This document shows positions 1 to 15,870 of a stretch of DNA of 64,000 nt, piece by piece. The stretch spans positions 744,001 to 808,000 of the forward strand of contig NZ_FPEI01000005.1 in the NCBI RefSeq assembly GCF_900117415.1, given 5' to 3'. Position 1 is the stretch's first letter. Each line of letters begins with the position of its first letter. This DNA comes from Hyphomicrobium sp. CS1BSMeth3 (GTDB taxonomy: Bacteria > Pseudomonadota > Alphaproteobacteria > Rhizobiales > Hyphomicrobiaceae). Made by a program: the position numbers and the translations under genes. The notes beneath the pieces are model-generated. The model was not told the DNA's origin. It did not search any database and was given only the letters and a program-made list of their open reading frames with translations.

Positions 1-109
1 CGCCGGGCCACCACCGCTCGGGTCATCAGGCAGCGCCAGCGCCCGACCCCGACGCAATAGAACCTGAGCAACCCCACGCAACGAACGAGCGCGCACCAGA
101 TGGTGCGCG

Positions 110-430
110 CTAACGCGTCGTCGGCTGAAGCGGCGAGCAATTCGCGTGACCAGCCTCGACGCACATTTCGATGCGCACGCTCGTACGAAGCTGCGTGATG
201 AGCCAGCCGCCCGCCACGAGGATGGCAATCAGCACAATGGCCGCGGCAATGTTCTGCCGCATGCGAAGGCGATCCTCCTCCTCGGCTCTTAGTCGCGCGA
301 GATCACTACCCGGCGGCCGTTTCATCGCGCCAGCCCCTGCTTTGCGCTTGAAAGGAATGACCTGCGCACTCCGAGGTTCAGGTCCCTCGTGGTCCCCGTG
401 ATGATCAGTTCCCCGGTCCGGTTGGCGCAT
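110..430 (-). CDS. Small single-pass membrane protein, unknown function
   Basis: Not recognised as a named family. About 106 aa: a charged, histidine-rich N-terminus, an Arg/Glu-rich stretch (RLRAEEEDRLRMRQN), then one hydrophobic helix (IAAAIVLIAILVAGGWLITQ) and a short tail with two cysteines. It begins just after the RND pump stop codon on the same strand, so it is probably the last gene of that operon. The ATG at 430 has GGGGAG four bases upstream; an ATG at 442 is the alternative. A small helper of the pump is possible from position alone. Confidence 0.6.
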   Translation of the reverse strand: MRQPDRGTDHHGDHEGPEPRSAQVIPFKRKAGAGAMKRPPGSDLARLRAEEEDRLRMRQNIAAAIVLIAILVAGGWLITQLRTSVRIEMCVEAGHANCSPLQPTTR

Positions 431-445
431 CGCACTCCCCATGCA

Positions 446-3400
446 TCAGCGGGCGACTGTATGCCGTTCGGCGGCCTCTTCCCGAGCACTTTCCTCGACT
501 GACGTGCCGCCAAGATAGCTCGCGAAGCGGTCGAGATAGATATAGATGACGGGCGTGGTGAAGAGCGTCAGTGCCTGGCTCACGATCAGCCCGCCCACCA
601 TGGCGTAACCCAGAGGCTGGCGAATTTCGGCACCCGTGCCGGCGCCGAGCATGAGCGGGACGGCGCCGAGCAATGCCGCCATGGTCGTCATCATGATCGG
701 TCGGAAGCGGAGCAGGGCGGCGTGGCGGATGGCCTCCTCCGGCGAGAGATGATGATCGCGCTCGGCCGTGATGGCGAAGTCGACCATCATGATGCCGTTC
801 TTCTTGACGATGCCGATCAGCAGAATCACGCCGATCATTGCGACGAGGCTGAAGTCGAAGCCGAACAGCATCAGCGTCGCGATGGCACCCGCGCCCGCAG
901 ACGGCAGCGTCGAGAGAATAGTCAGCGGATGGATGTAGCTCTCGTAGAGAATGCCGAGGATCAGATAGACGACGAACAGCGCCGCGGCGATCAGCATCGG
1001 CACGGTCCTCAGCGAATCCTGGAAAGCCTGCGCATTGCCCTGGAAAGTGCCGACGACGGTCGCGGGCATCTGTATTTCACGGATGGCCTGCTGGATGGCG
1101 GCCGTTGCGGTGCCGAGTGAGGCGCCTTGCGCGAGATTGAAACTGATGGTCACGGCCGGGAACTGGCCCTGGTGGCTGATCGACAAAGGCTTGGTGAGGC
1201 GCGTCGTCCAGCGGGCAAAGGCGGCGAAGGGCACCTGCTGCCCGGTCGTGGGTGACTTGATGTAAATTTTGTCGAGCGTATCCACCCGGCCTTGCAGGTC
1301 CGGGAGGATCTCCATCACCACGTGGTAGCTGTTCTGCTGCGTGAAGTATTGCGCGACCTGACGCTGCCCGAAAGCGTCGTAGAGCGTGTCGTCGATGAGC
1401 TGTGGCGTCAGGCCATAACGCGAAGCCTGGTCGCGATCGATAGTGAGTGTGAGGGACGTGCCGGACATCTGCTGGTCGGTCGCGACGTCGCGAAGCTCGG
1501 GGATGGTCTTCAGTTTATCGAGCACGCGCGGCGCCCAGGTATTCAGCTCATCGATATTCGCATCCTGTAGGGTGTACTGGAACTGCGTGCGCGCAAGTCG
1601 CCCACCAATGTTGACGTCCTGCGATGCCTGCATGAACAGTCGCGCGCCTTCGACCTTCTCCAGTTGCGGCCTCAGCCTGGCGATGACCTGGAAAACCGAG
1701 GCGTCGCGCTCACTCTTGGGCTTGAGCGTGATGAAGAAGCGTCCGTTGTTGAGGGTCGTGGTCGAGCCGCCGGCGCCGAGGGCCATGGCGTACGATGCCA
1801 CGGCCGGATCCCTGCCGATGATCTCGCCGAGGGCCTCCTGCCGGCGCATCATGTCGGCGAAGGATATGTCCTGCCCGGCTTCCGAAATACCGGTAATGAG
1901 CCCCGTGTCCTGCTGCGGGAAGAAACCTTTGGGAATAATCGCGAAGAGATAGCCCGTCACCGCGAGGGTGCCGAGAAAGATGCAGAGAACCGCGAATTGG
2001 TGCCTGAGCACGGCATCGAGTGCGCGCTCATAGCCGCGCAGCATCGCGTCGAACATGCGCTCGGTCGCCTGATAGAAGCGACCGTGCCCGCCCGCTGTTT
2101 CATGTCGCAGGAAGCGCGACGCCATCATCGGTGTCAGCGTCAGGGCGACGAACGCAGAAACCGCGATACACATCGACACCGTGACCGCGAACTCGCGGAA
2201 CAATCTGCCGATGATGCCGCCGAGCAGCAGAAGTGGGATGAACACAGCGACCAGCGAAATGCTGATCGAGAGAATCGTGAAGGCGATCTCGCCGGCACCC
2301 TTGTAGGCCGCCTCCATCGGGCGCATGCCGTCCTCGACATGACGCACGATGTTCTCGAGCATGACGATCGCGTCGTCGACCACGAAGCCGACCGAGATCG
2401 TGAGCGCCATCAGCGAGATGTTATCGAGGCTGTAACCCATGACGTACATCAGCCCCAGCGTGCCGAGCAGCGACAGCGGCACGGTCACACTCGGAATGAC
2501 GGTCGCCCAGAACGTGCGCAGGAACAGGAAGATCACGGCCACGACCAGGCCGATCGTCAGGAGCAATGTGAACTGCACATCATCGACGGAGGCACGAATG
2601 GTCAGCGTCCGATCGCTCATGATGTCGACGTGCACCGATGGCGGAAGCGCGGCCCTCAGACGCGGAAGCTGCTCCTTGATGCGATCGACGGTGTCGATGA
2701 CGTTCGCGCCCGGCTGCTTGAACACGATGAGAAAGACGCCGCGTTTGCCCGAGGCCCAGGCCGCCTTCTTGGCATCTTCCGGGCCCGCCACCGCCTGGCC
2801 GATGTCGCGCACGCGCAGCGGCGCGCCATTCCGGTAGGCGATGATGACGTCATTCCAGTCCTTGGCGACGGGAAGCTGATCGTTGGAGTAGATGGTGAAG
2901 CTGCGGCGGTCTCCGTCGATGATGCCCTTCGGCGTGTTGACGGTCGTCACACCGAGCTGCGCGCGCACGTCCTCGAGCGACAAGTTCTTGGCGACGAGCT
3001 TCGCCGGATCGATCTGGACGCGTATGGCGGGCTTCTGCTCGCCGCCGATCGTGACCTGGCCGACGCCCGCGAGCTGACTGATCTGCTGGGCGAGCTTGAT
3101 GTCCGCGTTGTCGTCGAGCTCGGTCAGAGGCATCGTGTCCGAGGTCACGGAAATGATCAGGATCGGCGAGTCGGCCGGGTTCACCTTCCGGTAGGTCGGC
3201 GGCGAAGGCAGGTCGCGGGGAAGCTGGCCGGCAGCGGCATTGATGGCCGACTGGATGTCGTTCGCGGCGGCGTCGATATTGCGATCGAGATCGAACTGCA
3301 CGGTTATCAGGGTCACGCCGAGGCCCGATGAAGACGTCGTCTGTGCGACGCCCGGGATCTGCGCGAACTGCCGCTCGAGCGGCTGCGCGACAGAGGATGC

Positions 3401-3583
3401 CATGGTCTCGGGGCTGGCGCCGGGGAGCTGGGCCGTCACCTGTATGGTCGGAAAATCAACCTTCGGCAGCGGCGCGACCGGCAGGTTGGGGTAGGCGACC
3501 AAGCCGACGAAGAGCAGCCCCACCATGATGAGCGAGGTGCCGATCGGGTAGCGGATGAATATTGCGGATAGGTTCGAGTTCAT
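446..3583 (-). CDS. RND multidrug efflux pump, inner-membrane subunit (MdtB/MdtC/AcrB-like)
   Basis: Proton-driven exporter of the hydrophobe/amphiphile efflux family, expected to form an inner-membrane trimer that works with a periplasmic adaptor and an outer-membrane channel. Its 1045 aa is the normal family length. An N-terminal transmembrane helix is followed by a large porter domain, and this arrangement repeats in the second half. The proton-relay aspartates are visible in FVVDDAIVMLENI and the partner lysine in GIVKKNGIMMVDFAI. The start codon overlaps the stop of the upstream adaptor gene by four bases (ATGA), so the two are translationally coupled. No outer-membrane factor gene is in the window. 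Substrates cannot be read from the sequence. Confidence 0.95.
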   Translation of the reverse strand: MNSNLSAIFIRYPIGTSLIMVGLLFVGLVAYPNLPVAPLPKVDFPTIQVTAQLPGASPETMASSVAQPLERQFAQIPGVAQTTSSSGLGVTLITVQFDLDRNIDAAANDIQSAINAAAGQLPRDLPSPPTYRKVNPADSPILIISVTSDTMPLTELDDNADIKLAQQISQLAGVGQVTIGGEQKPAIRVQIDPAKLVAKNLSLEDVRAQLGVTTVNTPKGIIDGDRRSFTIYSNDQLPVAKDWNDVIIAYRNGAPLRVRDIGQAVAGPEDAKKAAWASGKRGVFLIVFKQPGANVIDTVDRIKEQLPRLRAALPPSVHVDIMSDRTLTIRASVDDVQFTLLLTIGLVVAVIFLFLRTFWATVIPSVTVPLSLLGTLGLMYVMGYSLDNISLMALTISVGFVVDDAIVMLENIVRHVEDGMRPMEAAYKGAGEIAFTILSISISLVAVFIPLLLLGGIIGRLFREFAVTVSMCIAVSAFVALTLTPMMASRFLRHETAGGHGRFYQATERMFDAMLRGYERALDAVLRHQFAVLCIFLGTLAVTGYLFAIIPKGFFPQQDTGLITGISEAGQDISFADMMRRQEALGEIIGRDPAVASYAMALGAGGSTTTLNNGRFFITLKPKSERDASVFQVIARLRPQLEKVEGARLFMQASQDVNIGGRLARTQFQYTLQDANIDELNTWAPRVLDKLKTIPELRDVATDQQMSGTSLTLTIDRDQASRYGLTPQLIDDTLYDAFGQRQVAQYFTQQNSYHVVMEILPDLQGRVDTLDKIYIKSPTTGQQVPFAAFARWTTRLTKPLSISHQGQFPAVTISFNLAQGASLGTATAAIQQAIREIQMPATVVGTFQGNAQAFQDSLRTVPMLIAAALFVVYLILGILYESYIHPLTILSTLPSAGAGAIATLMLFGFDFSLVAMIGVILLIGIVKKNGIMMVDFAITAERDHHLSPEEAIRHAALLRFRPIMMTTMAALLGAVPLMLGAGTGAEIRQPLGYAMVGGLIVSQALTLFTTPVIYIYLDRFASYLGGTSVEESAREEAAERHTVAR

Positions 3584-4788
3584 GGCTCGCCCGTCATGTT
3601 GCTACTCATGCTTTGGCTGTTGCCCGGGAGAACCTCGACGAGCGTCGCAGGCTGCAGCCGGTACTGACCGGCCGTGACGACGCGCTCTCCTGGCGCGAGG
3701 CCGTGCTCGACGACCGCCCAGCCGTCCTCTATCGGGCCGATATCGACGCTGCGAAGCTCCGCCTTTCCGTCCTTGTTGATGACGAAAGCGAAGAGGCCAT
3801 TAGGCCCCCGCTGGACCGCGACATCGGGCACCGCCACCGCATTCTTGATGGTGGAAATGAGCAGTCGCGTCGTCACTGACAGCCCGGGCCACAGCGCATT
3901 GTCGGCATTGTCGAAGCTCGCCTTGAGCCGGATCGTGCCGCTCGCGGCATCCACCTGATTGTCGACAAGCGACAGCGTTCCATGCGCGAGCGTGCGCTTG
4001 CCATCCGACGTGAGGGCCGTCACTTGCAAGGGACCCGATTTCAGCGCCGCGCTGATGCTCGGAAGCTGCCCCTCCGGCGCCGTGAAGATCACCGAGATCG
4101 GCGTGAGCTGGGTGATGGTCAGAATGCCGTTCTGATCATTGGCGTGCACGATGTTGCCCGGATCGACGAGACGAAATCCCGCGCGCCCCGTCAGCGGCGA
4201 CCGGATCGTCGTATAGGCGAGCTGAACCTTCGCGCTCTCGATGGCCGCCTGATCTGCTTGTATCTGCGCCGTGAGCTGCGCGACAGTGGCCGTGCGCTGA
4301 TCGAACAGTTGCTGCGTGGCGTCACCCTGCTTGGCGAGCGTTGCGGTGCGCTGCAAGTCCTGCTTGGCATTGAGCAGCGAGGCCTGATCCTGCGCGAGCT
4401 TCGCCGTCGCCTGATCGAGCGTGGCCTGGAAGGGCGCCGGATCGATCTGCACGAGGAGGTCGCCCTGGCGCACGATTTGGCCTTCCTCGAAGGCGACTTT
4501 CTCGATCTGGCCGTCGACGCGCGATCTGACCAGAACCGAGTTGGTCGCCTGCACCGTCCCAAGCCCATTGAGGAATACGGGAATGTCGCGCGTGGTGACG
4601 GTCGTCGCCTGAACAGGCGTGGCGCTCACGGCGAGCTGCGACCGGGCCGCCACGCCTTTTTGCATCCCGGGCAGCCCGAGATACTGCCAAGCGACGCCCG
4701 CGGCGACGAGAAGCGCCACCGCTATGAGCGCCCATCGCCCTGGATGATGGCGGGTCTTGCGACCCGAGTCTCGTGTTTGCTTTTGCAA
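3580..4788 (-). CDS. RND efflux periplasmic adaptor (MdtA/AcrA-like)
   Basis: Membrane fusion protein of 402 aa that bridges the RND pump to an outer-membrane channel. There is an N-terminal membrane anchor (about residues 18-36, WALIAVALLVAAGVAWQYLG), a lipoyl-like half motif (VRSRVDGQIEKVAFEEGQIV), an Ala/Gln-rich coiled-coil hairpin at roughly 115-190, then beta-barrel and membrane-proximal domains. The N-terminus lacks a lipobox cysteine, so anchoring is by the uncleaved helix. It overlaps the pump gene by four bases and follows the DegP-like gene on the same strand. Confidence 0.93.
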   Translation of the reverse strand: MQKQTRDSGRKTRHHPGRWALIAVALLVAAGVAWQYLGLPGMQKGVAARSQLAVSATPVQATTVTTRDIPVFLNGLGTVQATNSVLVRSRVDGQIEKVAFEEGQIVRQGDLLVQIDPAPFQATLDQATAKLAQDQASLLNAKQDLQRTATLAKQGDATQQLFDQRTATVAQLTAQIQADQAAIESAKVQLAYTTIRSPLTGRAGFRLVDPGNIVHANDQNGILTITQLTPISVIFTAPEGQLPSISAALKSGPLQVTALTSDGKRTLAHGTLSLVDNQVDAASGTIRLKASFDNADNALWPGLSVTTRLLISTIKNAVAVPDVAVQRGPNGLFAFVINKDGKAELRSVDIGPIEDGWAVVEHGLAPGERVVTAGQYRLQPATLVEVLPGNSQSMSSNMTGEP

Positions 4789-4879: not shown

Positions 4880-6406
4880 TCAACCTCGTCCGATCGGCAC
4901 GGCCACGAAATGCGTTTCCGTGGCCGTCTTGATGCGCAGCAGGACTGCGCGCTGACCGTTCTTCTGCGCGGCCTCGAGGTCGGTCGTCACATCTCGGGGC
5001 GTCGACACGCTCTTGCCGCCGACCTCGAGGATCACGTCGCCTGCCTGGATGCCCTTCTCAGCGGCGGTGCCCTGCGGATCGATGCTCACCACGACCACGC
5101 CCTCCGCGCCGGCGCCTTCCACTTCGCCCGCCGGTGCGAGCCATAGGCCGAGATTGGGCTGGCTCTGCCTCGACGGCTGAGCTGGAGGAGTTGGTTCGGT
5201 CGGCAGCGCGGCAACGGTCAGTCGGAGAGTCTGCTCCTTGCCGCTCTGCCAGATGCGGAGCGCGATCGACTTGCCCGGATCCTGCGCAGCGACCGTACGC
5301 GCCAGATCGCGCGCATCGGCGATGACTTTGCCGTCGATCGACAGGATCACGTCACCGGCCTTGAGACCGGACTTCGCCGCCGGCCCGCCCGGCTGAACCT
5401 GATCGACGAGGGCGCCCGTGGCCTGCTTAAGGTTCACGCTGTCGGCAACATCCTGCGTAACATTCTGGACCGCGACGCCCATCCAGCCGCGGGTGACTGC
5501 GCCCTTGGCTTCGAGCTGCGCCGCAACGGCCTTGGCCGTATCGGCGGGAATGTCGAACGCGATGCCGACCGAACCGCCGGACGGCGAGAAGATCGCGGTG
5601 TTAACGCCGACCACCTGGCCCCGGAGGTTGAAGGTCGGTCCGCCGGAGTTGCCCTTGTTCACCGGAGCGTCGATCTGCAGGAAGTCATCATAGGGTCCCG
5701 AGCCGATATCGCGGCCTTGAGCCGAGACGATGCCCGCAGTGACCGTGCCGCCGAGACCGAAGGGATTGCCGACGGCCAGCACCCAATCGCCGATACGCGG
5801 CACCGTCTCCGCGAATGTCACAGACGGGAATCCGGCTTTGCCATCGACCTTGAGCACGGCAAGGTCGGTTTTTGCATCCGTCCCGATCACCCGCGCGGGA
5901 TAGGACTGTCCATCGATGGTCTTCACGTTCACGCTCTTGGCGTGATCGACGACGTGATAGTTGGTCAGGATGTAGCCATCCGGCGAAATGAAGAAGCCGG
6001 AACCCTGCGCCTGTATGATCCGCGGCGGCGCCTTGAGGCCCGGCTGGCCGAACTGACGGAAGAAGAATTCGAAGGGCGAGCCCGGCGGAATGACATTCTC
6101 GCCTTGCCCTTGCTCACCAAGCACCGACGCATCGCCCATCTGCTCGGCACTGACGTAGACCGACACGACGGTCGGCTTCACGTGCTCGGCGAGATCGGCG
6201 AAGCTCGGCATCTGCGCGAGCTGCCCCGGCGCAGCAACGGCAGCCGGGCTCGTCGTCGACTCGGTATTGGAGTTCTGCTCGGCTGCCCGGACGGCCCCAG
6301 CAACGATGGCGACGGCTGCGATGACGGCAACACTCGCGACCGGCCAGCCGCGTCCGATCGCGGGCCCTGGTTCCGGCCCTTTCGTCTGGCCTACGTGTTC
6401 GCTCAT
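4880..6406 (-). CDS. degP: Do-family periplasmic serine endopeptidase (DegP/HtrA-like)
   Basis: Envelope protease/chaperone that degrades or refolds misfolded exported proteins. From the chosen ATG the product is 508 aa: an N-terminal membrane or signal segment (about 21-42), a trypsin-like domain with triad His151 (NYHVVDH), Asp181 (KTDLAVLKV) and Ser254 (NKGNSGGPTF), then two PDZ domains (about 285-375 and 410-505). The start at 6406 has AAGGAGAG just upstream; the open frame runs further 5' but reads through non-conserved sequence overlapping the gene upstream. It lies between the HdeD-like gene and the efflux genes, which suits a shared envelope-stress operon. Confidence 0.93.
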   Translation of the reverse strand: MSEHVGQTKGPEPGPAIGRGWPVASVAVIAAVAIVAGAVRAAEQNSNTESTTSPAAVAAPGQLAQMPSFADLAEHVKPTVVSVYVSAEQMGDASVLGEQGQGENVIPPGSPFEFFFRQFGQPGLKAPPRIIQAQGSGFFISPDGYILTNYHVVDHAKSVNVKTIDGQSYPARVIGTDAKTDLAVLKVDGKAGFPSVTFAETVPRIGDWVLAVGNPFGLGGTVTAGIVSAQGRDIGSGPYDDFLQIDAPVNKGNSGGPTFNLRGQVVGVNTAIFSPSGGSVGIAFDIPADTAKAVAAQLEAKGAVTRGWMGVAVQNVTQDVADSVNLKQATGALVDQVQPGGPAAKSGLKAGDVILSIDGKVIADARDLARTVAAQDPGKSIALRIWQSGKEQTLRLTVAALPTEPTPPAQPSRQSQPNLGLWLAPAGEVEGAGAEGVVVVSIDPQGTAAEKGIQAGDVILEVGGKSVSTPRDVTTDLEAAQKNGQRAVLLRIKTATETHFVAVPIGRG

Positions 6407-6441: not shown

Positions 6442-7008
6442 TCAGTGTTGCGCGGGGTGGGCGCCCAAGGCCGCGAGGATCAGCATGAGCCCCGCGACGG
6501 TGAGATTGATGCCCATGTAGAGGCCGAGCGCCCACGCAGCCGTGGTCGGCCACCCGGCGATGATGAGCGCGGCAAGCAGAAAGTCGGCGGCAGCGCCGAG
6601 TGCGATCCAGAACCAGTGATCAGTGGCGCCGCGGAGCGCGCCTGCTACGGCCAGGCTGGCGATGCCATGGGCGCAGAGGTAGATCACGAGGGCCAATGTC
6701 AGCGTGAGGACGCCATCGTACGGCGAGAGCACGAGAAGGGCGCCGAGCACGCTCGTGATCGCGGCCAGCAGAATTGAGCCCCAGTAGCCCGGCGCACCTT
6801 GCGCGCTGAAGATCGAGGCAAAACGGAAAAGCCCCGTGATCAGAAGAAGCCAGCCCAGGAGCAGATCGACGGCGAGAGCGGCAACCTTCGGCAGTATCAC
6901 CGCGGCCATGCCGAGGACGACGAGCCCGCTCCCCTCGAGGATGACGAGCCGCCAGAAGTCCTGGAGCTGAGCTCCAGCTCGGCCGTTCGTTGCGCGCTCT
7001 CTCATCAC
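6442..7008 (-). CDS. HdeD/DUF308-family integral membrane protein
   Basis: 188 aa, almost entirely hydrophobic, with about six predicted helices arranged in pairs as in HdeD, a membrane protein linked to acid stress in enterobacteria. Recognition rests on overall architecture and segments such as LLLGWLLLITGLFRFASIF and LGLYMGINLTVAGLMLIL. A GTG at 7008 and an ATG at 7005 are adjacent candidate starts. It is the first gene of the leftward set and has a sigma-54-like promoter about 150 bp upstream. Biochemical function is unknown for the family. Confidence 0.85.
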   Translation of the reverse strand: MMRERATNGRAGAQLQDFWRLVILEGSGLVVLGMAAVILPKVAALAVDLLLGWLLLITGLFRFASIFSAQGAPGYWGSILLAAITSVLGALLVLSPYDGVLTLTLALVIYLCAHGIASLAVAGALRGATDHWFWIALGAAADFLLAALIIAGWPTTAAWALGLYMGINLTVAGLMLILAALGAHPAQH

Positions 7009-7157
7009 GACGCGCTCCGAAATGTTCCGGAGGCGTCGCCACGTCTCAGCGGTGAATTCGGCTCCCTGTCACGATTGATCTCGTTGCTCTCAAGCATGGA
7101 TGATGATCTCCGTCACTCGCCTGTCCACCCCAGTCAGCAGTGAGGCAAGCGGCGCCG

Positions 7158-7173
7158 AGCATCAGCCGTGCCA
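7158..7173 (-). promoter_or_regulatory. Candidate sigma-54 promoter for the HdeD-degP-efflux operon
   Basis: Read on the minus strand the site is TGGCACGGCTGATGCT. The consensus is TGGCACG-N4-TTGCW, so one core base differs, and the invariant GG and GC pairs are correctly spaced. A start point near 7147 would leave a leader of about 140 nt before the HdeD-like gene. The neighbouring regulator is of the sigma-54-activating type. Confidence 0.55.
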
Positions 7174-7220
7174 TCCTTTCAGCGCGTTGATTCGACTAGG
7201 TTCTTCGTGGCGGCGTGCAC

Positions 7221-7247
7221 GCGCGTGGTGGCCTCGCACCACCGCGC
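7221..7247. promoter_or_regulatory. GC-rich inverted repeat: possible activator site or terminator
   Basis: GCGCGTGGTG (7221-7230) faces CACCACCGCGC (7237-7247) across six bases, with one unpaired base. It lies downstream of the response-regulator stop codon and about 50-75 bp upstream of the sigma-54-like site. It could be an upstream activating sequence or an intrinsic stem ending the regulator transcript. No T-run follows on the minus strand, which favours the first reading slightly. Confidence 0.35.
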
Positions 7248-7288
7248 AGCCGGGACCGGTGGAAAGGCACCAGCGTAACGATCGTCGA

Positions 7289-8686
7289 TCAGCTCTTCAT
7301 CAGACCGTATTTCTGTATGCGGTAGCGCAGCGTCTCGCGGGTCGTGCCGAGCGCCCGCGCCGTGGCCATGACGTTGTAGCCGTGGCGCTCCAGCGCCGTC
7401 TGGATGATGTGCCGATCCATGTCGTCGAGCGCCATCGAGCCGTCGAGCGGCAGATGGATCCAGTCGCTGCCTTCCTGAACCACTCCGTGCTGCGAGGCCT
7501 GCGTCTCGTGCACCGGGGCAAGTTGCAGCCATTCTGCTGGCAGCTCCTCGTCATTGGAGAGGAGGATGCACCGCTCGATCACGTTGCGGAGCTGGCGAAC
7601 ATTGCCCGGCCAGTCGTGGGCTTGGAGCCGCGCCATGACTTCCGGGGGCACATGCCTCACGCGCTTGTTCGCCTTGGTGTTGAACTCGGCGACGAGCGCC
7701 ATCACCAGCTCCTCGATGTCCTCCTTTCGCTGGCGAAGCGCCGGCAAAGTCAGCTCGAAAACACTGAGGCGATGATAGAGGTCCGCGCGGAACTGACCGT
7801 CGCCGACTGCGCTGACGAGATCCCTGTTGGTCGCGGCAATGACCTGGATATCGACCGTGATCTCGCGCTCCCCGCCGAGCCGACGCAGCTTCCGGCTTTC
7901 GATGGCCGTGAGCAGCTTGGCCTGCAGGGCTGGATCCATCTCGCTGATCTCGTCGAGGAAGAGGGAGCCGCCATCGGCCTGCTCCATCAGGCCGCGGTGG
8001 GGACCTTTGGCGCCGGTGAAGGCACCCTGCTCATGTCCGAACAGCTCCGATTCCAGGAGATCCTTCGGAAGGGCGACGCAGTTCACCTCGACAAAAGGTC
8101 CATCGGCGCGCACGCCCGAATAATGCAGGATGCGCGCGATGAGGCCTTTTCCCGTGCCAGTCTCCCCCGCGATCATGATGCTGGAAAGCGGCAGATCCTG
8201 AAGCCGCGCGACCAGCTCGCGCACGCGCCGCGCCGCAGGGCTCGAGCCAATGAACGCCTCAGGCGAATAGCGCAGACGCTCCGCGGATGCCTGGTCCTTG
8301 AGACGCCGCTGCGCGCGGGCACTGCGCACCGCGCCGGCAATGACGAGGTCGAGCGTCTTGAACTCGGTCGGCTTTTGGAGAAAGTCGAATGCCCCGAGCT
8401 TCTGCGCGCGCTCCGCATCCGTCGGCTCGCCGTAGCCCGTAAGAAATACCCACTCGCCTGTCTCGCCGAGAGCACGCGCCTTCTCGAGCAGGTCGAGCCC
8501 GTTGCCATCGGGAAGGTTCATGTCGGAGAGCACGACCAGCGGCGTGATGCGCGTGCGAAGCAGAAGGTGCTCCGCTTCCCTCAGCGTGGGCGCGAGCACA
8601 ACATGCCAGCCAGCCCGCTGATAGTGGCGCTTCAGCTCACCGCCGAAAAGGGCCTCGTCCTCGATGATGAGCAGCGTATCCATCAC
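7289..8686 (-). CDS. Sigma-54-dependent response regulator (NtrC family)
   Basis: Transcription activator of 465 aa. The receiver domain (1-120) has the phospho-acceptor Asp55 (VVLSDMNLPDG) and Lys105 (FLQKPT). The AAA+ domain (about 145-375) has Walker A GETGTGKG at 174-181, the sigma-54-contacting GAFTGA loop at 221-226 and the LFLDEI Walker B. A Fis-type helix-turn-helix closes the protein (about 425-462, ATARALGTTRETLRYRI). It overlaps the kinase gene by four bases and should be phosphorylated by it. Sigma-54-type sites on both sides of the pair are the likely targets; that link is inference. Confidence 0.95.
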   Translation of the reverse strand: MMDTLLIIEDEALFGGELKRHYQRAGWHVVLAPTLREAEHLLLRTRITPLVVLSDMNLPDGNGLDLLEKARALGETGEWVFLTGYGEPTDAERAQKLGAFDFLQKPTEFKTLDLVIAGAVRSARAQRRLKDQASAERLRYSPEAFIGSSPAARRVRELVARLQDLPLSSIMIAGETGTGKGLIARILHYSGVRADGPFVEVNCVALPKDLLESELFGHEQGAFTGAKGPHRGLMEQADGGSLFLDEISEMDPALQAKLLTAIESRKLRRLGGEREITVDIQVIAATNRDLVSAVGDGQFRADLYHRLSVFELTLPALRQRKEDIEELVMALVAEFNTKANKRVRHVPPEVMARLQAHDWPGNVRQLRNVIERCILLSNDEELPAEWLQLAPVHETQASQHGVVQEGSDWIHLPLDGSMALDDMDRHIIQTALERHGYNVMATARALGTTRETLRYRIQKYGLMKS

Positions 8687-10203
8687 GCCGCCTCGCTGCT
8701 GACGAGGCTCAGCGTCACGACAGCCCCGCGGGGCTCACGATTGGAAAGCTCGAGCTTGCCGCCCATTGCCTGCACCATGCGCTGCACTGTCGAAAGCCCG
8801 AGACCCGATCCGCCCGCGCGCTGCGTGAGGAACGGACGTACGCCGCCTTCGATGAGGTCCTTGGAAAACCCAGGCCCATCATCAACAACGGACAGGCGCA
8901 GCATCTGGTTCTCGCGACAGGCCGTCACACTGATGGTGCCCGGGCTCTCGCCAATGGCCTGGCTCGCATTGAGCACGAGATTGAGAAGCATCTGGCGGAC
9001 CCCGTCCCTCTGCAGTCGGCAAACGACGCCCGCCGGCGTGCTGTTGTCGAGCGCGATCCGGTCCGGAACCTGGTAGCGCGCCAGCGCGAGAAGGTCCGAG
9101 ACGAGCGCGCGAACATCGACTTCCGTCGGCGCCTCCGGCTGGCGGCGGGCCCTCACCAGCAGGTGGTCGAGAAGCCGCGCCATGCGGTCGACCTCCGCCG
9201 CGATGAGCTGCAGGCGCTCGCGCTGATCGTCGTCGACACTGTCCTGCGTGAGATTGGCGAGCGCTATCTTGATGCCGGCGAGAGGATTGCGCAGCTCGTG
9301 CGCCACGCGCGCGGACATCTCGCCGACGGCCGATAGACGATCCGCCTCGGCAATTTCGACGCGTTGCCTGACGAGGGTCTCGGCTGCTGCCTGCACCTGG
9401 GCCTGGAGCTGATCCTGGTAGCGCTTGTTCGTTTGCAGAGCTTTGGTAAGGCGATCCACCAAACGATTGTAGCCCTCCATGATGGGGCGGACCGTCACGG
9501 CCACGTCGCCGGCCGGGGCCGGCCGATATTGTGCCTCGCCGATCAGATTCAGCAGCCGGCTCAAATCCCGCAGCGGTCGCGTGATGTGATCCCGCAGGAT
9601 GATCATCACGAGGAGCGCCGTGCAGGGCAGGACGAGAAGCGCGACGGCGGCCAGCATCAGCTCCGCCCGGGCGCCGTGCCGAATGCCGCTGAGCTCGCTG
9701 CGCCCTGCGGTTTTCTCGTGGTCCAGAACCTGACTGATGCGCGCGCGGGCATCCTCGGCGTTCTCCGCTGCAGCACGCGGGCTGTTGAGCGACTTGATGG
9801 CTTCGCGGAGGCGCTCCGCGCTGGTCGGGTCCGAGAAAACGTGCGCGCCGATGAGCTGCGTGAGCTGGACCTTCAGGAGGTCCATATCCGAGGAGCTCGG
9901 GTCGCTTCCTTTCACGGCGTGAAGAGCGAGGATGTTGTCGATCCGGCGCTCGATCTGCTGCAGGCGCTCCTGCTGCTCGAGGTGCACGTAGAATGGCTCG
10001 AGGCGCTGCAGTCCGCGCCAGGACACCGTGACGAGTAGTCCAAGCGCCACGAGCAGGGCCAACCCGCCGACCACAGCAAGAAGCTGGATGGGGCCCGAAA
10101 GCACGTCGTCGAGCACGGAACGCTGCGACGCGGCCGGTCGCGACGCGGCCTCGCGGGGCTCCGCAGCGGCCACATGGGCGATCGGGACGATGTCATCCGA
10201 CAT
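8683..10203 (-). CDS. Membrane sensor histidine kinase
   Basis: Partner of the NtrC-type regulator whose start it overlaps. About 506 aa: cytoplasmic N-terminus, first helix (IQLLAVVGGLALLVALGLLV), a mostly helical extracytoplasmic sensor region of about 115 residues, second helix (MLAAVALLVLPCTALLVMII), a HAMP linker, a HisKA dimerisation helix with the phospho-accepting His in VAHELRNPLAG, and an ATPase domain with N box (LNLVLNASQAI), DDGPGF and GSGLGLS. The start at 10203 has GGAG six bases upstream; a longer open frame to 10245 lacks a ribosome site. The signal sensed is unknown. Confidence 0.93.
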   Translation of the reverse strand: MSDDIVPIAHVAAAEPREAASRPAASQRSVLDDVLSGPIQLLAVVGGLALLVALGLLVTVSWRGLQRLEPFYVHLEQQERLQQIERRIDNILALHAVKGSDPSSSDMDLLKVQLTQLIGAHVFSDPTSAERLREAIKSLNSPRAAAENAEDARARISQVLDHEKTAGRSELSGIRHGARAELMLAAVALLVLPCTALLVMIILRDHITRPLRDLSRLLNLIGEAQYRPAPAGDVAVTVRPIMEGYNRLVDRLTKALQTNKRYQDQLQAQVQAAAETLVRQRVEIAEADRLSAVGEMSARVAHELRNPLAGIKIALANLTQDSVDDDQRERLQLIAAEVDRMARLLDHLLVRARRQPEAPTEVDVRALVSDLLALARYQVPDRIALDNSTPAGVVCRLQRDGVRQMLLNLVLNASQAIGESPGTISVTACRENQMLRLSVVDDGPGFSKDLIEGGVRPFLTQRAGGSGLGLSTVQRMVQAMGGKLELSNREPRGAVVTLSLVSSEAA

Positions 10204-10318
10204 GTCGGTCTCCAGGAGGTTGTCCTCGACCACCCGCCGGCCCAACGGTGGTTGAAGGCCACCAACGCACCCTAGTCAAATATAAGAAATCTGCTGCAAA
10301 TCAGCCTCTTAGATCGTC

Positions 10319-10334
10319 TGGCACAGGTGCTGCT
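10319..10334 (+). promoter_or_regulatory. Candidate sigma-54 promoter upstream of the DUF7282-like gene
   Basis: TGGCACAGGTGCTGCT fits TGGCACG-N4-TTGCW with two differences and keeps GG and GC at the required 10-base separation. It points toward the secreted-protein/MFS/EmrAB genes, leaving a leader of about 110 nt. It is the mirror of the site at 7158-7173 on the other side of the two-component pair. Confidence 0.45.
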
Positions 10335-10453
10335 GAAAGACCGACGAGAGACCTAGCAAACCGCAAGCGGCCGGGACTTCAGCGTGCGCGGACCGACCGC
10401 TCCGTCTCTCGATGAGGTGGTTGCAAACCATCGCCAACACAAGGACCCGGACC

Positions 10454-10921
10454 ATGCCCACACGCGCGAAATCCATTATGTCGCTGATGATCGCTACCGT
10501 AGCGGGGGCCACATACGCCGGCTCGGCTCTGGCACAGACGCAGACGCCGGCACCAGCTCCGGCGCCGGCGCCGGCTCAGGCACAATCGCCCTCGATCGAC
10601 GTATCGAACCAAAAGCTCACCAACAATACGGTCACGGTCAACGACGTTAACCTTCCGACGCGCGGCTATATCGCCATCCACACGACCAACGCCAACGGCG
10701 AGATGACGAACCGTATCATCGGCTATGCACCACTCCGAGCGGGAGACCACAAGAGCGTCAAGGTCCACCTGACCGGGAATCACAAGGCAGGCGAGACCCT
10801 CTGGGTGGCCGTGCATCAGCGGCGGCCCCGCCCCCTGATGGGTGCGCGCGGGAAAGGCCGCATCGGCGATCCATTCATGCAGATGGGTGTGCCGGTCGAT
10901 AAGTCCTTCCAAACTCTCTAG
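10454..10921 (+). CDS. Secreted protein with DUF7282-like domain
   Basis: 155 aa from the ATG at 10454, which follows AAGGA. The N-terminus is a signal peptide (about 1-27, ending SALAQ), then a Pro/Ala linker (about 28-46) and a small domain starting IDVSNQKLTNNTVTVNDVNL and continuing into TRGYIAIHTT, in the style of DUF7282 beta-sandwich domains. Exported to the periplasm by inference. It precedes the MHS carrier by about 70 bp and is probably co-transcribed. Function is unknown; the assignment is from motif memory and should be treated as tentative. Confidence 0.7.
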   Translation: MPTRAKSIMSLMIATVAGATYAGSALAQTQTPAPAPAPAPAQAQSPSIDVSNQKLTNNTVTVNDVNLPTRGYIAIHTTNANGEMTNRIIGYAPLRAGDHKSVKVHLTGNHKAGETLWVAVHQRRPRPLMGARGKGRIGDPFMQMGVPVDKSFQTL

Positions 10922-10992
10922 CCCTGGAATGCAGCATCGGGGCCGGCCATGGCCGATCCGGCCGGAGCCGGCCCGCTCCGAGGAATAGTGTC

Positions 10993-12318
10993 ATGGCCGC
11001 CATAGACGCTTCAGACTTAAACCTCACCGAACAACAGCATCGCGTGCAGCTGAGGCGTGCCGTGATCGCGAGTACGATCGGAACGACCATCGAGTGGTAC
11101 GACTTCTTCCTGTACAGCACCGTCACCGGCCTCGTATTTGCGAAGTTGTTCTTCCCGCACTCCGATCCCCTCGTCGGAACGCTCGAGGCCTTCACCATCT
11201 ATGCCGTCGGCTTTGCGGCAAGGCCCGTAGGCGCGGCCATCTTCGGCCACTACGGCGACCGCATCGGCCGCAAGGCGACGCTCATCGCGACCCTGATGCT
11301 CATGGGACTTGCCACCTTTGCCGTGGCGCTCGTGCCGACCTATGAGACGGCCGGCATCTGGGGTGCCGTCATTCTGACCGTGCTGCGCTTCCTGCAAGGC
11401 ATCGGCGTCGGCGGTGAATGGGGCGGCTCTGTGCTCATGTCCATGGAGTGGGCGCGCACCAACGACAGTCGCGGCTTCATCACTTCATGGCCGCAGTTCG
11501 GCGTGCCCTGCGGGCTGTTCCTCGCCAACCTGGCCGTGCTCGCCTTCAGCCAGATGTCCGGCGATCAGTTCCTCGCGTGGGGCTGGCGTATTCCCTTTGC
11601 GCTCAGCATCGCGCTGGTCGGCGTCGGGCTCTACATCCGCCTCGGCGTCCTCGAGACGCCGACGTTCCGGCGCCTCATCGAGGAGCGAAAGATCGAGCGC
11701 ACGCCCATCATCGAGGTCATCAAGCGCCAGCCTAAGGAAATCCTGCTGAGTGCGCTCCTGCGTATGGCGGAGCAGGCGCCGTTCTACATCTTCACGGCCT
11801 TCATCTTCGCCTACGGCACCGCGGCGCTCAACGTCTCGCGCGACTTCCTGCTCGTTGCCGTGCTGACGGCGGCGGTCCTGTCGTTCTTCTCCATCCCCTA
11901 CTTCGGCCACCTGTCCGACCGCATCGGGCGCACGAACATGTACATGATCGGCGCCATCGTCACCGGTATCTTCGGCTTCATCTACTTCTGGCTGCTCGAC
12001 ACCGGCTCACCGACGCTCATCTTCCTCGCGATCGTGCTGTCGCTCGTGCCGCACGACATGATGTACGGGCCGCAGGCTGCCTTGATCGCAGAGGCTTTCA
12101 CCGGTCGCCTGCGCTACAGCGGCGCATCGCTCGGCTATCAGCTCGCTTCGGTGATCGCCGGAGGCCCTGCACCACTCATCGCAACCTGGCTGTACAGCCG
12201 CCACCACTCGGGCATGGCGATCGCCGTCTACATCCTGTTCTGCGCCATTCTGAGCGTCGCAGCCACGGCGATGATGCACGACTACACCGGCAAGGACATT
12301 GGAAGTGAGTATGCCTGA
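10993..12318 (+). CDS. MFS transporter, metabolite:H+ symporter (MHS) family
   Basis: 441 aa with about twelve membrane helices. MHS hallmarks are TIEWYDFFLY near the start, FAARPVGAAIFGHYGDRIGRKATL between helices 2 and 3 (split here across the family signature), GVGGEWGG in helix 4 and the second-half copy FGHLSDRIGR. Family members import organic acids, osmolytes or aromatic acids with protons. The gene's last eight bases overlap the EmrA-like start, so it is coupled to the exporter genes, an uncommon pairing of an importer-type carrier with an EmrAB-type exporter. Confidence 0.92.
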   Translation: MAAIDASDLNLTEQQHRVQLRRAVIASTIGTTIEWYDFFLYSTVTGLVFAKLFFPHSDPLVGTLEAFTIYAVGFAARPVGAAIFGHYGDRIGRKATLIATLMLMGLATFAVALVPTYETAGIWGAVILTVLRFLQGIGVGGEWGGSVLMSMEWARTNDSRGFITSWPQFGVPCGLFLANLAVLAFSQMSGDQFLAWGWRIPFALSIALVGVGLYIRLGVLETPTFRRLIEERKIERTPIIEVIKRQPKEILLSALLRMAEQAPFYIFTAFIFAYGTAALNVSRDFLLVAVLTAAVLSFFSIPYFGHLSDRIGRTNMYMIGAIVTGIFGFIYFWLLDTGSPTLIFLAIVLSLVPHDMMYGPQAALIAEAFTGRLRYSGASLGYQLASVIAGGPAPLIATWLYSRHHSGMAIAVYILFCAILSVAATAMMHDYTGKDIGSEYA

Positions 12319-13498
12319 TGGGATCCCTGCTGGTTCGAGCCTCGCCTCGAAATTCGATGCGAGTGAGCCGGCAGGGGTGACCACCGAGCAGATCGAGGCA
12401 TTCACAAAGCCTGCCGGCGCCCCTCCGGCTTCATCGACCGAACCCGGCAGTGCGTCGCCCGCACGGTCAGCAAAGAGCTGGCTGCGTTCCCATCCCATAA
12501 CCTCCGCGGCCCTTGCGATCCTTCTCTGCGTGAGCGCCATCGCCGGCACGCTGTGGTGGCTCAACGCCCGTCACTTCGAAACGACCGACGACGCCTTCAT
12601 CGACGCACGCCAGTTCTCGATCAGTGCCAAGGTATCCGGCTACATCGAGAGCGTCGCGGTGACCGACAACGAGCGGGTTGCCGCCGGCGCTCTCCTTCTC
12701 CAGATCGATAAGCGCGACTACGCCGTCGCTGTCGCGCAGGCCGAGGCGCAGGTCGCTCAAGCCGAAGCCAGCGTCACCAACAACAGCGCCCTGATCGCGG
12801 TGCAGAAGGCCCAGGTCGCCCAATTCAAGGATCAGCTCGCTTCGGCGGGGGCATCGCTCAGATACGCCCAGCAGCAGAACGATCGCTATCAGGCGCTCCT
12901 CCGCACGGGCACGGCGACCGTCCAAAGCGCGCAGCAGTTCCAATCGCAGTTCGAGCAGGCCGTCGCCGCCGAACGCAACGCCGCAGATGCCGTCGACGCT
13001 GCCGGCAAGCAGGTCGTCGCGCTCGAGGCACAAGAGACGAGCGCACGCGCCAACCTGCGCGCAGCTCAAACGCAGCTCGACCAGGCCAAGCTCAATCTTT
13101 CCTACACGACGGTCACGGCAGGCCAGGGAGGGCATGTGGCCCATCTTTCCGCGGCGAAGGGCGCCTATGTGCAGGCCGGCCAGAGCCTGATGATGTTCGT
13201 TCCTGACGATGTGTGGGTCACAGCCAACTTCAAGGAGACCCAGATCGCCGACATGCGTCCGGGCCAACCTGTCGACATCGATGTGGATGCCTATCCCGGA
13301 CGCGCGTTCCGAGGTCATGTCGACAGCATTCAGTCGGGGTCCGGAACGGCTTTCAGCCTGCTGCCGCCCGAGAACGCAACCGGCAACTACGTCAAAGTCG
13401 TGCAGCGCGTGCCGGTCAAGATCGTGTTCGACCATATCCCGCAAGACGTGGTGCTCGGCCCCGGGATGTCGGTCGTCCCGAGCGTCAAGGTGCGATGA
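12311..13498 (+). CDS. EmrA-like HlyD-family membrane fusion protein
   Basis: 395 aa from the ATG at 12311, which has GGAAGTGAG directly upstream; a TTG at 12299 is less likely. One membrane helix (about residues 60-80, ITSAALAILLCVSAIAGTLW), a lipoyl half motif (AKVSGYIESVAVTDNERV), a long Gln/Ala-rich coiled coil (about 125-240) and a C-terminal barrel. Expected to form the periplasmic conduit of an EmrAB-type tripartite pump with the next gene. It overlaps the MHS carrier by eight bases and the EmrB gene by four. Confidence 0.92.
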   Translation: MPDGIPAGSSLASKFDASEPAGVTTEQIEAFTKPAGAPPASSTEPGSASPARSAKSWLRSHPITSAALAILLCVSAIAGTLWWLNARHFETTDDAFIDARQFSISAKVSGYIESVAVTDNERVAAGALLLQIDKRDYAVAVAQAEAQVAQAEASVTNNSALIAVQKAQVAQFKDQLASAGASLRYAQQQNDRYQALLRTGTATVQSAQQFQSQFEQAVAAERNAADAVDAAGKQVVALEAQETSARANLRAAQTQLDQAKLNLSYTTVTAGQGGHVAHLSAAKGAYVQAGQSLMMFVPDDVWVTANFKETQIADMRPGQPVDIDVDAYPGRAFRGHVDSIQSGSGTAFSLLPPENATGNYVKVVQRVPVKIVFDHIPQDVVLGPGMSVVPSVKVR

Positions 13499-15302: not shown

Positions 15303-15764
15303 ATGCTGCGTCGCTTGTCGATACTGTGTGCCGCATCTCTCATGTGTGCCGGCGCATCTGCTGCTTATGCCTTCTCCCCCGTTCAGCAGTTGTCCCCCGG
15401 CGCCGACGCGTATCTGACGTATGTGCGCGGCGGCGGCGGTGGTGGCGGCGGCGGAGGCCATGGTGGTGGCGGTGGATTTGGTGGTGGATTTGGTGGTGGC
15501 GGAGGCCATATGGGTGGCCCGAGCTTCGGCGGTGGTCATATGGGCGGCCCGAGCTTCGGCGGCGGCCATATGGGCGGCCGTGGCTTCAATGGCCCCAGAG
15601 GTAGCCACTCCTTTGTCAGCCACCGTCCGGGTCCCGGTGGCGGTGACCATGGGCGCAGGAACGGCCGCTTCATTGGCGGCGTGTGGATCTGGTACGCCGA
15701 TCCCGGCTGGCCTGGCTGCTGGTACAGCGACTACTACGGTGGCTGGACCTGCGACTACTACTGA
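15303..15764 (+). CDS. Small exported glycine-rich repeat protein
   Basis: 153 aa starting at an ATG preceded by AAGGAGAG. A signal peptide (about 1-23, ending ASAAYA) is followed by a Gly-rich region: a polyglycine run, then ten-residue near-perfect tandem units of the type HMGGPSFGGG (three copies), and an aromatic, Cys-containing end (WYADPGWPGCWYSDYYGGWTCDYY region). Such exported Gly-rich proteins are common in Rhizobiales but lack assigned function. The repeat part is likely disordered. It converges on the cytochrome c gene. Confidence 0.75.
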   Translation: MLRRLSILCAASLMCAGASAAYAFSPVQQLSPGADAYLTYVRGGGGGGGGGGHGGGGGFGGGFGGGGGHMGGPSFGGGHMGGPSFGGGHMGGRGFNGPRGSHSFVSHRPGPGGGDHGRRNGRFIGGVWIWYADPGWPGCWYSDYYGGWTCDYY

Positions 15765-15870
15765 CCCCACCGGCTGATCGTGCTCGCGGGGCAGGCGGCG
15801 AACTTCAGGCTGCCTGCCGACGCGGGATGCGCGCTGCTCGTGTCATTCGAGCTCGGCCATCACACCGGGA

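Follow-up and report, generated by a model that had tools for sequence, protein, structure and literature searches.

Two genes of Hyphomicrobium sp. CS1BSMeth3, encoding an NtrC-type response regulator and its membrane sensor kinase, probably form the core of a self-contained sigma-54 stress regulon in which the pair drives protease, pump and envelope genes through three dyad-bearing promoters. The pair lies in a window of 64,000 nucleotides, the whole stretch of DNA analyzed here (NZ_FPEI01000005.1, positions 744,001-808,000, of the genome designated G000). The evidence was obtained computationally and consists of -24/-12 promoter sites on both sides of the pair, an inverted repeat (dyad) at a near-constant distance upstream of each, the conservation of these elements in a sister genome, and their recurrence near homologous regulators. 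The result is very probably a real sigma-54 regulon whose general kind is known and whose regulator clade, operator and target set are new; its support exceeds what the original prediction could offer. The prediction of one sigma-54 switch facing two operons is supported by the sites and the dyads and also by a third, similarly built promoter just outside the window, within the own-genome locus L147 that extends to the left. The elements on which the argument depends are as follows.

7289..8686, minus strand: NtrC-type sigma-54 response regulator with D55, GAFTGA at residues 221-226 and a Fis-type helix-turn-helix (HTH)
8683..10203, minus strand: membrane sensor histidine kinase (HisKA/HATPase) starting with ATG at 10203 or possibly, in a longer form, with TTG at 10245
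7158..7173, minus strand: predicted -24/-12 promoter TGGCACGGCTGATGCT, facing the HdeD, DegP, adaptor, RND and small-protein genes; predicted start at about 7147
10319..10334, plus strand: predicted -24/-12 promoter TGGCACAGGTGCTGCT, facing the DUF7282, MHS, EmrA and EmrB genes; predicted start at about 10345
7226..7241, minus strand: dyad TGGTGCGAGGCCACCA, presumed operator of the regulator, 68 bp before the -24 element
10249..10264, plus strand: dyad TGGTTGAAGGCCACCA (presumed operator), 70 bp ahead of the -24 element; relative to the kinase ATG it lies 46-61 bp upstream
C3:743082-743163 (L147 9082-9163), 0.84 kb left of the window: third dyad with a predicted -24/-12 site, preceding the gene for a His/Pro-rich secreted protein
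L147 9275-10060, plus strand, 3' end at window 1..60: the third target gene, encoding this secreted His/Pro-rich protein of 261 amino acids (aa)

Sigma-54 promoters carry GG at -25/-24 and GC at -13/-12, and both window sites read TGGCAC-N6-TGC, which gives the -24/-12 spacing. Verification of the sites confirmed the positions and the orientation toward the named operons that had been proposed for them, and family searches upheld the gene identities originally given for the left operon, the right operon and the central pair, including the intact GAFTGA loop. The regulator has the domains of the NtrC kind, REC, AAA+ and Fis-type HTH (Pfam PF00072, PF00158 and PF02954), and rpoN is present in the same genome as a single PF00309 match of 72.5 bits. 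Exact TGGCAC-N6-TGC occurs four times in the window where 0.92 are expected, a count reached in none of 100 shuffles, and a mis-spaced control with the inter-element gap one base short gave 19 matches against 21.6 expected. At the genome-wide density of exact sites, the expectation for a correctly oriented site in each of two gaps is ~4e-7. Another exact TGGCAC-N6-TGCW match in the window, at 26927-26912 on the minus strand, lies downstream of a same-strand YdjC-like gene.

The case for a regulon is made by the upstream dyad and not by the site consensus alone. The inverted repeat TGGT-N8-ACCA, unnamed in the original prediction, is present in both intergenic gaps and sits inside the two intervals that had been proposed there for footprinting (7174-7260 and 10240-10318). 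A search of the whole genome for a dyad combined with a site returned four places, namely the two window sites, the third promoter and one elsewhere, and a looser form of the pattern returned the same three together with two others. The same dyad stands 66-70 bp before each of the three -24/-12 sites. The protein encoded behind the third has no Pfam or NCBIfam family, and its gene converges with the small-protein gene at the left end of the window. Since the right dyad lies just upstream of the kinase, autoregulation is plausible, and the two-component pair may regulate its own expression. A second palindrome, GGTGGTTGCAAACCATC, occupies positions 10416-10432 (plus strand) of the right 5' leader and has a counterpart in the sister locus; its spacer is shorter than that of the operator, and it may serve as an additional binding site. 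An RNA element was rejected as an explanation of this palindrome when the right 5' leader was found to fold no better than shuffled sequences (z 1.02; 168 of 200 as good).

The arrangement recurs near homologues of the regulator. Before counting, a second Sinorhizobium medicae strain (L179), two loci of 47% and 44% identity (L195 and L196) and two short contigs (L010 and L011) were removed. With strict criteria, under which dyad and site lie 45-130 bp apart, 14 pairs were found in 30 loci, five of them in the pattern-defining window, L002 (the sister locus) and L147, with two wrong-side pairs in the same loci; 67 loci of other NtrC-type regulators yielded one. Relaxed criteria allowed one dyad mismatch, a site score of at least 3 and a distance of 60-112 bp, and excluded the window, L002 and L147. 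Under these, the first set gave 21 pairs, spread over 12 of its 27 loci, with none on the wrong side, and a later set of 40 loci gave 10 pairs in six loci with two on the wrong side. Controls were nearly empty: 19 regions 500 kb away in the same genomes held no pair (one wrong-side), and the 67 loci of other NtrC-type regulators held one (two wrong-side). Compared with this single positive among 86 control loci, Fisher's test gives 4e-8 for the first set and 0.004 for the later one. The later set comprises 38 of 108 matching Methylococcales genomes, one locus each and with long contigs favored, and two loci from the Sulfuriferula order; it is partly kin of the first, such that L230, L233, L235 and L236 are close to L183 and the two sets are not fully independent. 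The distances between dyad and site cluster at 66-71, 77-83 and 95-112 bp, and these classes hint at helical phasing.

The genes placed behind the two window promoters are the following.

6442..7008, minus strand: HdeD-like membrane protein (DUF308); 32.6 bits to the HdeD equivalog, under its cut-off of 189
4880..6406, minus strand: DegP/Do-family periplasmic protease, cluster-specific form
3580..4788, minus strand: periplasmic adaptor of a resistance-nodulation-division (RND) pump
446..3583, minus strand: RND efflux permease, MdtB/C-like
110..442, minus strand: small protein of 110 aa with one hydrophobic stretch (by eye) and no Pfam family, conserved in L002
10454..10921, plus strand: secreted DUF7282 protein
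10993..12318, plus strand: MHS-type carrier of the major facilitator superfamily (MFS)
12299..13498, plus strand: EmrA-like adaptor; no counterpart found in L002
13495..15102, plus strand: EmrB-like MFS exporter (MFS_1); likewise no counterpart found in L002

Of four other genomes of the genus that were searched, one (G002) carries an orthologue of the regulator, at 82%. No orthologue was found in G001, G003 and G004, in which the best matches had E values of 2e-66 to 2e-65 and of which one is only 87% complete. The G002 locus (L002, 21,395 bases of JALHOW010000001.1) is an independent sister locus with the HdeD, DegP, adaptor, RND and small-protein genes on one side of the pair and the DUF7282 and MHS genes on the other, and both -24/-12 sites are kept, so that the site pair is conserved together with the gene order, as the original prediction had asked to be checked. 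The left site is identical at 15 of 16 positions within intergenic DNA that is 47% identical overall, a level matched by 2 of 296 alignment windows; for the right site the values are 14 of 16, 61% and 14 of 310, which is less exceptional than the left and not striking by itself. All three dyads are present, at 69, 71 and 69 bp, with one mismatch in the 71-bp dyad, and the third target is conserved as a 227-aa protein. A broken third promoter in L002, with a wrong -12 spacing, was rejected as a reading because a looser -24 element (CGGC) gives a site at 69 bp. The cluster form of DegP accompanies the regulator in both G000 and G002 (72% in the latter), and only DegP homologues of 48-50% identity were found in G001, G003 and G004. 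Within the L002 locus no match to EmrA or EmrB exceeds 60 bits, which removes them from the conserved core. Because they were not found there, EmrAB looks like a late addition to the cluster. Regarding the claim that two multidrug exporters lie under one switch, then, the RND pump is retained in the sister locus and the EmrAB exporter is not found in it.

Several observations weigh against this regulon. The consensus match alone is weak evidence, because matches to the TGCW form of the pattern with one mismatch allowed occur in the window at chance level (8 against 7.4 expected) and because the exact TGCW pattern, with 29 occurrences in the 6.02-Mb genome, is rarer than its reversed control, with 56. 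Moreover, a sigma-70-like match (9 of 12 positions) lies at 7127-7100 on the minus strand, between the left site and HdeD. These are the observations expected if a short consensus had been matched by chance between operons of the ordinary sigma-70 type. We consider this very improbable in view of the placement of the sites, their conservation, the equal dyad spacing, the third copy reached through a genome scan and the recurrence near homologues; sigma-70-like matches also number one in 6800-11050 where 0.5 is expected and are not above chance. As to recurrence, strict criteria found pairs in only 3 of the 40 later loci (none on the wrong side, and none in the 19 control regions), the relaxed thresholds were chosen after inspecting the first set, and no pair lies near the regulator in 15 of the 27 and 34 of the 40 clade loci, that is, in most of them. 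Conservation is supported by just one sister genome, in which the third -24/-12 site, CGGCATGAAATCTGCG, is conserved at 11 of 16 positions, a level equaled by 22 of 263 windows. The signal, finally, is a guess from gene neighbors only.

The poor conservation of the third site also bears on the possibility that the regulator controls just one of the three promoters, or two of them, and that another sigma-54 activator serves the rest, for which the genome offers candidates: it has 21 NtrC-type matches including the regulator itself, which leaves ~20 further relatives. Such a division of control is unlikely, given that each of the three sites is preceded by this dyad at 66-70 bp and that the dyad recurs near homologues of this regulator, as against 1 of 67 loci of other NtrC-type regulators. 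Control of all three promoters by the one pair is our preferred reading.

The regulator belongs to a well-separated clade. In a 78-row tree, 66 regulators form a single branch from which 12 other NtrC-type regulators are separated (100/100); GAFTGA is retained in 64 of the 66, and the HTH motif RETLRYR is at least 90% conserved at every position. The window, L002 and S. medicae sequences group together (96/98) within a mostly gammaproteobacterial clade in which several deeper forks are weak, and this nesting suggests a transfer of the regulator into Alphaproteobacteria. Beyond the genus, the nearest regulators are mostly gammaproteobacterial (up to 65%), and the other alphaproteobacterial relatives are those of G326 (58%) and of 13 Sinorhizobium medicae plasmids (58-59%). 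At E <= 1e-110 the regulator was found in 2 of 385 sampled Alphaproteobacteria, its own genome included, and in 20 of 369 sampled genomes of the Sulfuriferula class; at E <= 1e-140 it was found in 3 of 349 of the Sulfuriferula order and in 108 of 151 Methylococcales, each of the last three counts including the centre genome, which for Methylococcales is a metagenome-assembled genome of Methylococcaceae. The 20 genomes of the Sulfuriferula class contributed 17 new regions besides L003 and L009, with one at a contig end left out. Relatives of the regulator thus occur in many methane-oxidizing bacteria, and a kinase match lies directly upstream of the regulator in 33 of the 40 later loci.

The genes behind predicted dyad-site pairs, for which Pfam checks were made, differ from locus to locus. 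DegP follows the regulator directly behind such a pair in L180 and L184, the window differing in that HdeD comes first; in 6 of 31 loci a DegP gene is found no more than 7.5 kb from the regulator. In L266 an RND permease gene, with an adaptor gene after it, stands behind a dyad-site pair and is divergent from the regulator-kinase pair; its close relative L265, which was outside the dyad-site scan, has a similar RND layout. Cytochrome bd is represented by subunit II in L184, by subunit I in L187 and, by clustering, in L186. SulP stands behind a pair in L235 and, by resemblance, in L005; a DabA gene (L240) and one for a DUF202 protein (L180) follow pairs whose dyad has one mismatch; a ferritin-like, Dps-like protein does so in L014 (family assigned via a relative in L013); and in L180 the kinase gene itself lies behind a pair. 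In L159 two YfdX genes lie behind -24/-12 sites, with one dyad-site pair containing a mismatch and no perfect dyad found when one was sought. We hypothesize, with confidence just short of even, a transferable and previously unnamed sigma-54 stress cassette in which the regulator (usually with its kinase) and the operator are kept across Alpha- and Gammaproteobacteria and the effectors are swapped: DegP, HdeD and RND here, and cytochrome bd, SulP, DabA, YfdX or Dps-like proteins elsewhere. Clustering also places the regulator-kinase pair amid genes for cytochrome bd subunits and CydDC-like ABC exporters in L182, L186 and L187 (Pfam covers subunit I of L187 only), and the SulP- and DabA-type products behind predicted pairs in the Methylococcales loci L005, L235 and L240 could move inorganic carbon.

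How would such a regulon operate? The membrane kinase would sense an envelope insult, with acid or proton stress and the accompanying protein damage as the best guess, and would phosphorylate the regulator at D55. The phosphorylated regulator would then bind the TGGT-N8-ACCA dyads 66-70 bp upstream of the three -24/-12 promoters, contact the sigma-54 polymerase via its GAFTGA ATPase and open the promoters. Three outputs are predicted: the HdeD, DegP, adaptor, RND and small-protein operon; the DUF7282 and MHS genes, possibly with EmrA and EmrB; and the secreted His/Pro-rich protein. Protease, membrane, secreted and efflux functions would in this way rise together. The sites, dyads, spacing, conservation and recurrence are computed results; regulator binding, promoter activity, phosphorylation, operon limits and the signal are inferred, with family knowledge behind each step from sensing to opening.

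Acid is favored as the signal, tentatively and at distinctly less than even confidence, because of the gene neighbors and a likeness to the targets of EvgA in E. coli. On one side of the S. medicae regulator lie an MHS-like carrier open reading frame (ORF) and lpiA-fsrR-tcrA-tcsA, which are labeled acid-inducible or acid-responsive; the other neighbors that suggest acid are the YfdX genes of L159. In the accessible part of PMC5613336, fsrR is described as needed for acid activation of lpiA in strain WSM419. On the other side of the same regulator, visual inspection shows a DUF1614 gene preceded by a dyad and a site of the TGGTGC type. In this locus (L178, plasmid CP140906.1), no kinase match adjoins the orthologue, and the MHS-like carrier between it and the lpiA genes is broken into two ORFs that overlap. 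Oxidant, metal or respiratory signals may act instead. Indeed, we give an even chance to a regulon that is real and responds to something other than acid, such as oxidants or chlorine, metals, a respiratory block or a drug-like compound, with HdeD, DegP and the pumps as general damage control. The cytochrome bd (L184, L187), Dps-like (L014) and SulP (L235) genes behind dyad-site pairs point this way, as does the association of HdeD and YfdX with heat and chlorine in the transmissible locus of stress tolerance (tLST), as reported in PMC8290217; the acid-responsive genes beside the S. medicae orthologue and the EvgA-like target set point back to acid.

Comparison with known systems places the pair near, and outside, several of them. 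EvgA is not known to act as a sigma-54 activator, and its partner EvgS belongs to the hybrid phosphorelay kinases. The EvgA target list, as far as the accessible text of PMC5093140 gives it, contains acid, YfdX and EmrK/Y-type efflux genes, which are close in kind to the HdeD, EmrAB and RND genes of the window and to YfdX in L159. In logic the system is ZraSR-like without being a member of ZraSR: like the E. coli system, it combines a sigma-54 regulator and a sensor kinase with a target beside the pair and a tie to envelope stress (PMC7657598, in part). The regulator scores 277.5 bits against a ZraR cut-off of 760 and the kinase 125.4 against 479 for ZraS, and the direct ZraR targets named in the same partial source are zraSR, zraP and mgtA, not DegP or pumps. 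Membership of AtoC (349.4 against 714 bits) or NtrC (329.9 against 558.6) is likewise not supported, and among the 25 best-scoring of 69 NCBIfam families there is none whose cut-off the pair attains. In Desulfovibrio vulgaris, DVU1419 and DVU3381 are sigma-54 response regulators placed under 'envelope stress response' (PMC4641369, accessible part). The sites in a mapping study of that species are mostly palindromic, with repeats of 4-6 bp that are 3-8 bp apart, like TGGT-N8-ACCA; the targets of the two regulators were called hypothetical genes there in 2011, and the likeness drawn here is by description only (PMC3333781, accessible part). The tLST shares HdeD, YfdX and DegP forms and mobility between bacteria, and its regulation is not described as sigma-54 in the consulted passages of PMC8290217. 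Only the HdeD-like protein and DegP, among the 11 cluster genes and the third target, correspond to it, and the scanned cluster genes encode no small heat-shock protein and no ClpK, FtsH, KefB or thioredoxin.

The original prediction called the layout unusual on the ground that envelope regulons use other sigma factors. This holds only in part, since ZraSR and DVU1419/DVU3381 are sigma-54-dependent precedents; as for pumps, the literature searches on sigma-54 and efflux brought up neither an RND nor an EmrAB pump that is a direct sigma-54 target, a result that falls short of showing that there is none. The literature within reach, which left most subscription papers outside, yielded no account of the clade or of a directly sigma-54-driven RND or DegP operon, and searches on sigma-54 with cydAB, DegP or Dps and on methanotrophs surfaced no description of the system. 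Sigma-54 was proposed as a general controller of the 'bacterial exterior' in 2011 (PMC3162934), in a paper whose main text, as accessible, contains no occurrence of efflux, RND or DegP. Few sigma-54 envelope-stress cases are known, and here an RND pump and a periplasmic protease are placed under predicted sigma-54 control, together with a testable operator, three promoter predictions and a delimited clade for a pair that attains no NCBIfam cut-off within the comparison above. The S. medicae orthologue near lpiA ties the system to a culturable organism. If the hypothesis of a transferable cassette is true, the system would act as the sigma-54 equivalent of the EvgAS acid and drug response and be a main envelope-stress system of methanotrophs.

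Two minor observations concern the surroundings of the cluster. Downstream of EmrB, at 15421-15777 on the plus strand, lies a Gly/His-rich ORF with a signal-like start and no Pfam family. A second DegP form is encoded elsewhere in the genome (G000:C3:449145-450593) and, at 56% identity, is nearer to the cluster DegP than are the copies of 48-49%.

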